From Acidobacteriota bacterium (GTDB lineage: Bacteria > Acidobacteriota > Holophagae > Holophagales > Holophagaceae), in assembly GCA_016192145.1 (NCBI GenBank), contig JACPUT010000006.1, forward strand, positions 248,001 through 312,000: 64,000 bases of DNA. The letters are read 5' to 3'. A program made the position numbers and the translations under genes. The stretch's first letter is position 1, and every line of letters starts with the position of its first letter. Under the pieces are notes generated by a model. The model saw only the letters and a list, made by a program, of their open reading frames with translations. It searched no databases and was not told the origin of the DNA. Of this stretch, positions 33,484 through 41,033 are shown piece after piece.

Positions 33484-33508
33484 CGAATCCCTTTGTTGGG
33501 CGGCCTTG

Positions 33509-33820
33509 GGAACGCGAAGGGCGCTGTGCGCCTCGCGAATGCGCCATCGAGCAAGGCCCTCCGGCCTTCGGCCCGCGCCGCGATAGTGGCGCGCTTCCCT
33601 GGGCGTCCCCAGTGCGGCCTTCAAGGGCCGCTCAGGGGACGCTCAGGGAAGGGAGGGCCGGGATGGGTCGGAGGAGAACGGACGCTTCAGCCCGCCAATC
33701 CGCACGGCCCTTGGCATCGATGCGGTTCAAGATGCCCGCGAAGCCATATTCGAAGCGCTCGCTTTGAACTCACTTCGCGCTCTTCGCGCCCCGAAGGGGC
33801 CTTCGCGCCATTCGCGTTCC
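33509..33820. repeat. 312-bp structured repeat, copy A
   Basis: This stretch fills most of the 370-base gap between the FHA-GGDEF and kinase genes. It matches 38082-38394 along its whole length at roughly 85% by eye, with almost identical length (312 and 313). Its ends are inverted: GGAACGCGAAGG at the left and TTCGCGTTCC at the right. Internally, TTCCCTGGGCGTCCCC pairs with GGGGACGCTCAGGGAA. Open frames inside it are non-specific. Confidence 0.88.
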
Positions 33821-33855
33821 AGGTAGGTACACCTTGAATGGGCTAGGCTGGAGCC

Positions 33856-35280
33856 ATGGCCCTGCTGATCCCCCAGACCCTCGGCGCCGTGCGCGTGAAG
33901 GAGCGCCTCGGGGAAGGCGGCATGGCCTATGTGCACCGCTGTGAGGATCCCTTCCGGCCCGAGCGGCGGCTGGCGGTGAAGCTGCTGAAACCCGAGGTGC
34001 ACGGCGATGTGGATCTGGTGAAGCGCTTCCAGCGCGAGGGGGAGCTCCTCAAGGAACTGCGCCATCCCAACCTCGTGGAGGTCTTCGCCTACGGGCGATC
34101 CGGCAGCTGGCCCTACCTGATCATGGAACTGCTGGCCGGTGGCAGCCTCAAGGCCTGCATGGGGGAGTCGCCCGCGAACCTCATCACCCGCCTCGCGCCG
34201 GTGACGGGCGCCCTCCAGGTGGCCCACGAGGCGGGCATCGTGCACCGCGATCTCAAGCCCAGCAACCTGCTCTTCGCTGAGGACGGCACGCTGAAGGTGA
34301 CGGATTTCGGCGTGTGCATGTGGGAGGGCGACGACGCCACGCGCTACACCAAGAGCTCCATGGTGGTGGGCACCGTGGGCTACATGGCGCCGGAGCAGCA
34401 CGGCGACCCCCGCGCCGTGGATCGCCGCACGGACATCTACGCCCTGGGCGCCATCCTCTACGAGTTCTGCACGGGGCAGCCCTGGGCGCTGATGATGGTG
34501 CCGCCCGCCTCCACGCGCCCCGGCTTCCCGCCGCGCCTCGCCTCGATCATCATGCGGTGCCTGCAGCCGGCGCCCGCCAAGCGCCCTCCCACCATGGAGG
34601 CCCTCGGCGCCGAGCTGATGGAGTGGCTGGAGGGGGCCGAGGCCGCGGGTTGGGGCGGGGAGCCGCTCCCGGGCTGGAACCGCGAGGCGCAGGAGGCGCC
34701 CACCGTGGCCGCCGTGCGCGCGCGCGTGCTCGAAGGCGAAGCCCCCGAGGGCCGCCTGGGACCCTACCTCGATCCCCTGGGGGCCGCCAGCGTGGGCCAG
34801 CGCCGCCAGGCGGCCGAGGCCCTGCGCGATGCCGCCCGCGCGGGCGATGGCCCCTGGCTGGCGCAGGCCCTCGGGGCGGTGCCGCCCAGCGCCCGCTTCG
34901 GCCCCTGCCTCGCCTTGGAACGGGTGGGCGGCGAGGACGCCATCGAGCCCCTCCTGGCCCTGCTGGAAGATCCCTACTGCGGTCGGGAAGCCGCCGAAGC
35001 CGTCGCCGCCATCGCCCGCCGGGTGGGCCGGGAGGATGAGGTGCGTCGCCGTCTGCGCGAGGTGGGGCTCGGCCACCCGGGCCGCTGGCTCGCCCGCTGC
35101 CGCCTGGGCGATGGCACCTGGGCCGAAGCCCTCGCCCGCGACTGGCCCACCCTCTCCGAAAGCCACCGCCTCCAAGCCCTCGCCGCCGCGAAGGAGCTGC
35201 CCACGGGCGTGCGCCTGGCCCTGAAGGGGCGGCTGGGCTACGCCCTGGGCAGCGTGGGCGAGGCGCTGGCGGGGCTTTGA
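33856..35280 (+). CDS. Ser/Thr protein kinase with HEAT-like C-terminal region
   Basis: A 474-residue Hanks-type kinase. Glycine loop GEGGMAYV at 19-26, catalytic lysine in AVKLL near 42, HRDLKPSN at 130-137, DFG at 150-152 and APE near 178-180 are intact, so it should be active. After about residue 300 there is an alpha-helical repeat region (AIEPLLALLEDPYCGREAAEAVAAIAR) resembling HEAT/PBS-lyase repeats. No membrane helix is seen, unlike many bacterial STPKs. GGAG precedes the ATG. The FHA proteins upstream are plausible readers of its phosphorylation. Confidence 0.92.
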   Translation: MALLIPQTLGAVRVKERLGEGGMAYVHRCEDPFRPERRLAVKLLKPEVHGDVDLVKRFQREGELLKELRHPNLVEVFAYGRSGSWPYLIMELLAGGSLKACMGESPANLITRLAPVTGALQVAHEAGIVHRDLKPSNLLFAEDGTLKVTDFGVCMWEGDDATRYTKSSMVVGTVGYMAPEQHGDPRAVDRRTDIYALGAILYEFCTGQPWALMMVPPASTRPGFPPRLASIIMRCLQPAPAKRPPTMEALGAELMEWLEGAEAAGWGGEPLPGWNREAQEAPTVAAVRARVLEGEAPEGRLGPYLDPLGAASVGQRRQAAEALRDAARAGDGPWLAQALGAVPPSARFGPCLALERVGGEDAIEPLLALLEDPYCGREAAEAVAAIARRVGREDEVRRRLREVGLGHPGRWLARCRLGDGTWAEALARDWPTLSESHRLQALAAAKELPTGVRLALKGRLGYALGSVGEALAGL

Positions 35281-35297: not shown

Positions 35298-35514
35298 AAC
35301 AGGGATGAAGGGGATGAAGGGGATAAAAGCAGCATGCGGCCGGGGCCTGGGGCCGCGCCTTGCGCGGCGCCGTCGCAATGCGACGGCGGTTCAGCGGGCG
35401 GCCTTGGGCGCCCCTGAAGGCGCCCCGGGCCGCCCGCTGAACCTGACCCCAGGCCCTGGATGGGTCGGCGCTGAATCCCGCTAACCCATCCCCTGTATCC
35501 CCTTCATCCCTGTT
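35298..35514. repeat. Nested multi-stem palindrome with tandem-word outer arms
   Basis: The outer arms 35298-35324 and 35488-35514 pair at 25 of 27 bases and consist of GGGGATGAA / AGGGATGAA words. Inside are separate GC-rich stems: GCCGTCGCA-TGCGACGGC, and a longer one where GTTCAGCGGGCGGCC near 35390 pairs with its complement near 35442, itself holding an inner stem GGGCGCC / GGCGCCC. A wider stem GGGGCCTGGGG / CCCCAGGCCC encloses both. It lies between convergent genes. Confidence 0.88.
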
Positions 35515-35528
35515 GATCACCCGCCCGA

Positions 35529-36137
35529 TCAAAGCCCAAGACCCCCGAATCGGGCGAGATCATCCACGGGCTCGGGCTTCGGCGTGAACCAGCTTCCAAA
35601 TCCCTTTTCGACCTCGGATGCTTCGACGAGCACCGCATGGGCCCCCGCGTAGAGCGCGCTCCACAGGGCACCGCGCAGCGCGGGCGTGCCCCAGGCGGCG
35701 CGGGGCAGGCGGGCCACGGTGTCGTGGTCCCAGCCCAGCCGCTGATTCAGGCGCGCGAGGCGCTGGAGGAAATCGCCTTGAGTGAGGCCGGTCGTGAAGG
35801 GGGTGTCGGTTGTGACGAGGGCTTCCCGATCGTGGAAGAGGCCGCGGCCCCTTTCATCGTTGAAGGCGGCACCCCCCAGGACCGCCTCCGGCACCGTGAG
35901 GGCCGTGGGATCCCAGCGCAGGCCCGAGGCCGCGGCGGCCACCTCCGCCGCCCAGTCCCAGGGCGTGCCCGTGTCCGCGTGGCAGGCTCCGAGGCCCGCC
36001 GCCAACAGCCCGAAGGCCGTGCCCTCCACGCGATTGCGGAAGGCGGCGTAATCCAGGGTCGGCCAGGGCGCGCAGCTGAAGGCTGGCCGCTGCTGCAGCC
36101 GGGCCGCGCGCTGGATGAGGAGGAGTCGCAGGGTCAT
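35529..36137 (-). CDS. Truncated acyl-CoA-synthetase-like protein (N-terminal part only)
   Basis: A 202-residue protein. It reads like the front part of an AMP-binding enzyme: LLLIQRAARLQQRPAFSCAP, LDYAAFRNRVEGTAFGLLAAG, and later LNQRLGWDHDTVARLPRAAW with ALYAGAHAVLVEASEVEKGFG. The expected phosphate loop (TSGTTGxPKG) is not recognisable; VTTDTPFTTGLTQGDF occupies its place. The catalytic core and C-terminal domain are missing. The frame is intact, so it may be an expressed remnant or a repurposed domain. Start at 36137 chosen where homology-like text begins. Assignment is tentative. Confidence 0.6.
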   Translation of the reverse strand: MTLRLLLIQRAARLQQRPAFSCAPWPTLDYAAFRNRVEGTAFGLLAAGLGACHADTGTPWDWAAEVAAAASGLRWDPTALTVPEAVLGGAAFNDERGRGLFHDREALVTTDTPFTTGLTQGDFLQRLARLNQRLGWDHDTVARLPRAAWGTPALRGALWSALYAGAHAVLVEASEVEKGFGSWFTPKPEPVDDLARFGGLGL

Positions 36138-36286
36138 GGCTTCACAGTGTCGGAGGAGCCTGGACTTGCCAAGGGTGGGTTGCCTTTTGCCTGCCTCGGA
36201 ACAAAATTTGGCCCCGGCGTAAACCCCGTCGGCCCCGGCCGGGTCCAATCCCCACGTCCCCCTCATGGACATCCCAGGAGCCCGCC

Positions 36287-38048: not shown

Positions 38049-38081
38049 TTCCGGGGGAATCAACCTTGGGTTTTGGGAAGG

Positions 38082-38394
38082 GGAACGCGAAGGGCGCTGC
38101 GCGCCTCGCGAATGCGCCTTCCCGCTGGGCCCTCCGGCCTTCGGCCCGCGCCGCGATGGCGGCGCGCTTCCCTGAGCGTCCCCCGTGCGGCCTTCGAGGG
38201 CCGCTTAGGGGACGCTCAGGGAAGGGAGGGCCGGGCTGGGCCCGAAGGGCACGGACGCTTCGGCCCGCCAAGCCGCTCGGCCCATGGCATCGATGCGGTT
38301 CAAGATGCCCGCGAAGGCATTGATCGGAGGGTGGGATTCGAATTCCATTCGCGCTCTTCGCGCCCCGAAGGGGCCTTCGCGCCATTCGCGTTCC
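38082..38394. repeat. 313-bp structured repeat, copy B
   Basis: The second copy of the element at 33509-33820, same orientation. It has the same inverted ends (GGAACGCGAAGG / TTCGCGTTCC) and the same central pairing TTCCCTGAGCGTCCCC with GGGGACGCTCAGGGAA. Most differences cluster in one 40-base segment near the right end. With the preceding terminator it explains the 440-base gap between the lipoprotein and methyltransferase genes. Confidence 0.88.
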
Positions 38395-38438
38395 ATTCGC
38401 CTGCCCGCCTTGGACGAGCTCCCCGGGCCTCTGCCCTT

Positions 38439-40597: not shown

Positions 40598-40640
40598 GGG
40601 AACCCCTATGAGGATGCCTTCCCAGTTTAAGGGATATTGA

Positions 40641-40907
40641 GAGCCTGTTGCACAATCCCCATGGGCCGCGCTGGGAGCGCTGGCCGAGCCTGGGTAGGAG
40701 GGGGCACGCAGGCATGGTGGTTCCACGTCAAGGGCCCCCGACGACGCCAGGCGACGGCCGCTGCCCCAGCCCTCCGGGACGGCGGCCAGCCGCGCGCCTG
40801 GCTGCGTCAGTGGGCTTGGCCGATGGCCTGCATCGGCCTGCGCCCCCTTCCTTGCCAGACACGCGGCTGACCACCGTCGCGGCCCATGGGGGTTGTGCAA
40901 CAGGCTC
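40641..40907. mobile_element. 267-bp MITE-like element with 30-bp terminal inverted repeats
   Basis: 40641-40670 and 40878-40907 are reverse complements at 29 of 30 positions, starting GAGCCTGTTGCACAA. The interior is GC-rich with nested stems (for example CCGATGGCCTGCATCGG near 40821) and no transposase frame. No clear target-site duplication is visible at the borders. This pattern suits a non-autonomous transposon relic. It lies directly upstream of prs; the remaining 126 bases to the next gene show nothing recognisable. Confidence 0.75.
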
Positions 40908-41033
40908 TATACCCCCGGTCGGAGGTCCGCAGCCTGACGGATGGGGCGAGATCCAGCCCCCAGGCGGCTCGGAGGGTGATTATTTTTTCCGGGCGGAGCG
41001 CCTTCCCTGGGGATTCCGGCGGCCAGGATGGCC

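Follow-up and report, generated by a model that had tools for sequence, protein, structure and literature searches.

The window analysed here, a stretch of 64,000 nt from an Acidobacteriota genome (contig JACPUT010000006.1, positions 248,001 to 312,000), contains at 35298-35514 a palindromic element that is best read as a non-autonomous, nested, gene-less member of a family of word-armed cassettes moving between gene junctions. In this reading, a cassette has an interior flanked by a pair of inverted arms, each built from two to five words in tandem. Full members carry a small gene inside, either GxxExxY (PF13366) or, with 7-nt words, S23 (PF05635), and members without a gene contain a short loop, a further palindrome or a further frame. 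Tandem-word arms are associated with the gene, and both word type and word period follow the protein subfamily. Cassettes replace one another at a single site, insert at gene junctions, and present the same frame with different interiors. That they constitute one family and that the protein plays a part at their arms is given a probability of about 0.5.

The initial annotation described the element as tandem-word arms enclosing a multi-stem, GC-rich loop, and this description was confirmed. Each arm is 27 nt long and is composed of AACAGGG and the 9-nt word GGGATGAAG in tandem; the two arms are 93% complementary, and the interior between them is branched, GC-rich and made of nested stems (Table 1). 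The element thereby shares with the cassettes the presence of tandem 9-10-nt words in inverted arms, and no GxxExxY gene lies inside its arms. In the predicted fold, the terminal arms close a long stem. The folding check proposed in the annotation gave -175.8 kcal/mol for the RNA of 35298-35514, against a mean of -104.4 (standard deviation 4.9) for 200 dinucleotide shuffles, none of which was equally stable (0/200; z = -14.6), and the interior without the arms (35325-35487) reached z = -8.4. No clear target duplication was found at 35298/35514.

The source genome (G000; 3.8 Mb in 19 contigs) contains further copies of these parts. With up to 3 mismatches, GGGATGAAGGGGAT occurs at 27 places in the window, against 10.8 expected. 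Some 0.6 kb to the left of the window, at C7:247173-247391, the element is present a second time in full, with 89% identity. The arm words are also found in three further inward-facing frames, each with a different interior, and at five more places the arms occur in the opposite order around a tiny loop. Stable stems are not present in every frame: the five inward-facing interiors had fold z values of -8.4, -7.2, -6.7, -2.6 and +0.5. With one mismatch allowed, the half-palindrome GATGGGTCGGCGC occurs 41 times in this genome against 11 for its reversed control, and GGGAT words were within 200 nt of only 2 of the 30 GATGGGTCGGCGC loci examined. The inner palindrome GCGCCGACCCA/TGGGTCGGCGC lies inside or beside arms of 7-nt words, e.g. 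GGCTCTA and AGTCCTT, in 7 of the 10 loci read. The search for inner stems away from the outer arms, which had also been proposed, was thus positive, and arms were likewise found without these stems. Inner and outer parts are therefore separable, the opposite of the outcome that the initial annotation had named as telling against a composite. Since the palindrome is found with 7-nt words too, frames of two word classes contain one and the same inner part. Palindromes of the TGGGTCGGCGC type in or beside such arms were recorded at L325, L327, L336, L345, L350, L352 and L354; 7-nt-word arms are the class that flanks S23 genes.

Comparison with relatives places the same frame around different contents. 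The second copy in the source genome comes after a GxxExxY gene with an internal deletion. At the corresponding position, upstream of a gene named glnS by reading, an intact GxxExxY gene and a word hairpin occur in G011 (L081) and G001 (L270); both hairpins have the same arms (the right one in G011 in partial decay) around a loop of some 27 nt. Shared arms with differing interiors at this site in the three genomes indicate that the frame stays while the interior differs, which supports the suggestion that word arms form a frame into which other palindromes are placed. The accompanying suggestion of a likeness to an element at 40641 was not supported, as the arms of the latter are, by reading, one 31-nt inverted repeat with no tandem word. 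That element (40640-40908; 97% complementarity between its terminal repeats, which are 207 nt apart) resembles a miniature inverted-repeat transposable element. The gene pair flanking the window element abuts without it in G005, G006 and G007. Empty sites sought in G000 for two hairpins of G001 (L271) yielded short flank matches only and no clean site. Among 31 relatives, GGGATGAAG arms were present in 7 of 21 genomes with GxxExxY and in 0 of 10 without it. All five GxxExxY genes of the source genome have, by reading, tandem words nearby.

Arms of this kind surround many GxxExxY genes across phyla. The sample comprised 80 loci from named genomes, among the matches listed, fetched with a seven-sequence alignment; it favours proteins of the GFLE subfamily because the search patterns contain GFLE. 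In the arm test, the 350-nt flanks of the gene were aligned with each other in inverted orientation, and 74 loci could be scored. Fifty of them scored above the best (15.5) of 524 shifted controls, and 55/74 exceeded the 99th percentile of these controls. Triple GAT upstream combined with triple ATC downstream was found at 40/73 loci and 0/539 controls, the reverse order at 7/73 and 2/539, respectively. Among 135 gene-boundary controls, none had the triple motif on both sides, five scored at least 14 and three scored above 15.5, namely one Y1 gene with palindromes and two host genes in 7-nt-word arms. In the source genome and G011, L040 to L043 pass the arm test, and L039 and L081 fail. In Sphingomonas, GxxExxY is located between fabD and fabG.

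Several loci met in this survey deserve separate mention. At L101 (5209-5661), a Y1 transposase gene (PF01797) near a GxxExxY gene sits between inverted palindromes with a score of 41.5, and host-type genes (dihydrodipicolinate synthase-like / GDP-mannose dehydratase) occur between inverted 7-nt-word arms at L122 (4577-5644) and L165 (1767-2459). Self-driven amplification in G006, which has 50 GxxExxY matches, was considered and rejected: the 12 aligned copies are embedded in a repeated element that shares its right end and, to the left, has a reading frame judged by eye to be transposase-like. These loci (L176-L187) hold GxxExxY fragments and GCGGAGG-type words within the transposon-like element, of which internally shortened versions are present.

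Based on 122 reading frames (104 GFLE and 18 GLLE; 14 loci without a passing reading frame were left out), word class follows protein subfamily. GFLE proteins were associated with GAT/AAT words in 70 cases (4 in reversed order) and with AAG/GAG-like words in 3, of which L073 is true, L315 was recoded and L080 is unclear; the remainder comprised 5 unclear cases, 23 without arms and 3 too short. The corresponding counts for GLLE were 15 AAG/GAG, 0 GAT/AAT, 1 unclear and 2 without arms. On a tree of 87 proteins (118 columns, many forks unresolved), the two word classes required 2 changes, against a mean of 14.9 and a least value of 12 in 200 shuffles. Words within the GAT/AAT class required 23 changes (mean 32.5, least 26; 500 shuffles). 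For GGAT versus AGAT at 46 one-per-species loci, 10 changes were counted against a mean of 15.1, with 1/500 shuffles as low, and phylum on the one-per-species subset gave 28 changes against a mean of 31.0, with 7/300 as low.

Word period behaves in the same manner. It was defined as the best self-match of arms passing a 0.6 filter, which 5/188 letter-shuffled arms also pass. The period of GFLE arms was 9 (44 arms) or 10 (43 arms) in 87 of 88 arms and 51 of 52 loci, and that of GLLE arms was 8 in 11 of 12 arms and 6 of 7 loci. The choice between 9 and 10 also tracks the tree (9 changes versus a mean of 17.6 and a least value of 12 in 500 shuffles). The idea that every GLLE arm has a period of 8 was rejected, with 9/16 loci failing the filter and showing periods 8 and 9 mixed. 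This correspondence of word type with gene type is a hint that the ends of an element are recognised or produced by its own protein.

The replacement of one cassette by another was seen at a Geomonas junction, the reading of which covered 17 genomes out of 19, all except G047 and G049. Seven genomes (G031, G034, G038, G039, G040, G043 and G044) have a GFLE gene with GGGAT arms at this junction, five (G033, G035, G036, G042 and G050) a GLLE gene with GCAAAG-type arms, TCACGCAAAGCCGCAAAGACGCAAAG, and five (G037, G041, G045, G046 and G048) no gene. Except for G048, the gene-less sites keep leftover arms or hairpins, G045 still with a GCAAAG arm. As cassette types swap at one site, the word is set by neither site nor host. 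At L321 and L322, GCAAAG-type words are enclosed by GGGAT arms, forming a nested composite like the window element.

A parallel set of cassettes is built around S23. The sample included 22 loci, 10 from relatives (TIGR02436) and 12 of 30 plasmid records, and 15 of the 22 had arms scoring above the best (11.5) of 83 controls. Arm period was 7 in 26/28 passing arms and 13/14 loci. Discrete insertions at operon junctions were observed in Nostoc sp. ATCC 53789, whose plasmids pNsp_a and pNsp_c have a three-gene stretch in common: pNsp_a carries an S23 element with GTCAGAA/GTCAGGA words where pNsp_c has GGTTCTAGGTTATG, and at the following junction it is pNsp_c that has another S23 element, its words being GGGAAAA, and pNsp_a that is empty, with about 35 extra nt on one side. 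The first insertion has TTCTA on both sides, a duplication or part of the arm, and one G is missing. S23 was further found between two ribonucleotide reductase genes in Nostoc edaphicum, and between cas6 and cas4 on a Pseudanabaena plasmid (L365). The flanks of L365 carry AAAGCTA / AAAGCCA words in direct, not inverted, order.

The gene of the full cassettes belongs to the GxxExxY / PDDEXK_3 proteins (TIGR04256, PF13366). PF13366 was matched by 15/15 GxxExxY sequences, in which E29, D68, E78, K80, Q92 and Y96 are invariant. A model of the Geomonas protein, built from a 30-row alignment, had a predicted local distance difference test score of 92.9 and a predicted template-modelling score of 0.86. 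Its top match in the PDB was 4ic1 (SSO0001, a Cas4), with a Foldseek E-value of 3.8e-4 and a VIA-align Z of 9.7 over 99 residues; 3ijm came next (Z 8.5), followed in Foldseek by lambda exonuclease and MGME1. VIA-align families below Z 8 were not read as relatives, and the single match obtained by sequence among solved structures (E 0.044) was not used. Both the E..D..ExK..QxxxY residues and the modelled fold identify GxxExxY as a probable Cas4-like PD-(D/E)XK nuclease. For pairs with finite dS, dN/dS was 0.05-0.12. GxxExxY was not found described as a mobile element in the parts consulted of a literature outside subscription journals and preprints.

It is conceivable, at somewhat less than even odds, that the word arms of a cassette are the target of its own protein, probably as extruded hairpins. 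Our first choice for how cassettes might move is a Cas4-like nuclease working at word hairpins: at these, or at junctions, the nuclease would open the DNA, and repair or recombination would copy the cassette in. Such copying would swap interiors between frames with the same words, and gene loss together with the nesting of other palindromes would leave composites like the window element. A bolder and rather doubtful extension is that the cassettes represent a distinct class of mobile elements, whose ends are specified by how long the repeated word is, not by a fixed sequence. The protein would then measure, read or write the arms (7 nt for S23, ca. 8 for GLLE, 9/10 for GFLE), and the intergenic heptamers and 9-10-mers of many bacteria would be scars or gene-less copies.

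Several points weigh against the cassette reading. No instance of transposition, binding or cutting was observed, and purifying selection at a fixed site fits a host function equally well. The arms of 24/74 GxxExxY loci do not exceed controls, and L081 fails here as well, since its upstream arm lies some 550 nt off. The roughly 50 copies of G006 ride in an insertion sequence and so tell nothing of their own mobility. A clean target duplication was not found at the Nostoc insertion. The co-occurrence of GGGATGAAG arms with GxxExxY has a one-sided p of about 0.04 with kinship ignored. The period filter was failed by 26/78 GFLE and 9/16 GLLE armed loci, and the GLLE loci that pass are mostly from Geomonas. 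Finally, subfamily and word class for the most part share one deep split, and independent support thus comes from the within-class tests and the Geomonas swaps.

The alternative that survives best, although improbable, is an RNA element comparable to the intervening sequences (IVS) of 23S rRNA, whose arms would act in the transcript. The long stem closed by the arms would be removed by RNase III or would shield the insert from neighbouring sequence, and the proteins would be riders or RNA binders. S23 is indeed the 23S rRNA intervening-sequence protein family, and the anatomy is the same: the Coxiella IVS is described in PMC4990558 as an element of 428 nt that ends in a 28-bp stem, has an open reading frame in its loop and is cut by RNase III. 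Like IVS, with their ca. 28-bp inverted arms and small open reading frame in the loop, S23 cassettes carry PF05635, and insertions within operons (fabD/fabG, cas6/cas4) would suit this view. Unlike IVS, the cassettes lie outside rRNA, have tandem-word arms and come in gene-less or GxxExxY versions. The window element is located between convergent genes and not within a 23S rRNA gene; Rfam searches of the window returned two tRNAs, nothing at 35298-35514 and no rRNA family match anywhere. Moreover, the fold of GxxExxY is that of nucleases such as Cas4 and lambda exonuclease, and an IVS-like element does not explain why word period and type follow the protein.

Still less probable is a population of elements resembling repetitive extragenic palindromic (REP) sequences, moved in trans by an HUH (REP-associated tyrosine transposase, RAYT / Y1) or other transposase, with GxxExxY and S23 as passengers. 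A small gene between inverted palindromes, together with dispersed gene-less palindromes, resembles RAYT (Y1/HUH) with REP and REPIN; the Y1 gene of L101 was met among the controls, and G003 and G011 carry GGGATGAAG arms and have Y1 matches. Yet G000 (98% complete) and G001 (76%), which both have GGGATGAAG elements, gave no Y1 (PF01797) match, G013, G015 and G018 being outside the search. REP palindromes are tagged by GTAG or CGTC. By reading, neither tag occurs at the window palindrome, and the cassettes differ from RAYT systems in their tandem-word arms without a GTAG tag and in their protein families. PMC3733652 names such tags in part. A passenger would not be expected to go with one arm type and one period, and the failure of passenger models to predict the word-protein rule counts against them.

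We regard as about as unlikely, or slightly more so, a nuclease gene kept by the host, e.g. for defence or repair, with fixed regulatory arms and ordinary gene transfer. The low dN/dS and weak PADLOC matches (Cas4 models in at most 5/30 proteins, E up to 0.01) would fit, but unrelated word and gene types replace each other at one site, many frames are gene-less, and insertion within essential operons looks cassette-like rather than fixed-locus. Least probable is a fixed feature of the host, a palindrome acting as bidirectional terminator or attenuator, for which the convergent-gene position and very stable fold would speak, but no U-run follows the arms on either strand (by reading), the same gene pair lacks the element in G005, G006 and G007, and relatives of the element lie inside operons and beside glnS.

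If the cassette reading is true, GxxExxY and dispersed S23, very common small families of no known role, would gain a context, and their own word arms would provide a testable substrate. The tie between repeat period and protein family would be an unexpected rule, open to an easy in vitro test. It would also offer a source for the old puzzle of short tandem words in intergenic DNA. The intergenic heptamers of Nostoc, Xanthomonas and Beggiatoaceae are described in PMC4692102 and PMC4679880 as direct repeats whose origin is left unexplained, and S23 was not found in the searched passages of these papers. They resemble S23 arms as 7-nt tandem words in intergenic DNA and differ from them in being described as direct repeats; their identity with S23 arms is putative. 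The cyanobacterial short tandemly repeated repetitive sequences are also 7-nt tandem words in intergenic DNA.

Table 1. Parts of the window element and its neighbouring genes (window coordinates).
Feature	Position	Strand	Basis or remark
Left arm, AACAGGG and tandem 9-nt words	35298..35324	+	same 27-mer also present in other frames of this genome
Right arm, inverted tandem words	35488..35514	-	93% complementary to left arm
Inner multi-stem structure, closing 12-bp stem (35340-35351 with 35448-35459)	35340..35459	+	minimum free energy structure
Inner stem B, 7 bp	35352..35368	+	minimum free energy structure
Inner stem C, 8 bp	35369..35387	+	minimum free energy structure
Inner stem D, GGTTCAGCGGGCGGCC..GGCCGCCCGCTGAACC, 25-nt arms 92% complementary	35388..35443	+	minimum free energy structure and arm complementarity
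GATGGGTCGGCGC, half of inner palindrome recurring in other frames of the genome	35459..35471	+	
Upstream neighbour gene, protein kinase domain (PF00069)	33856..35280	+	
Convergent neighbour gene, no Pfam match	35529..36272	-	

Outside the arms, a 9-bp pairing of GGGCTTTGA with TCAAAGCCC (35272-35280 with 35529-35537) spans, by reading, the stop codons of both neighbours. The window also contains two copies of another composite element, at 33508-33821 and 38081-38395, 4.57 kb apart, which are 90% identical over 240 nt and then 86% identical over 72 nt, with GCGAA-type words at their ends and GC palindromes inside.
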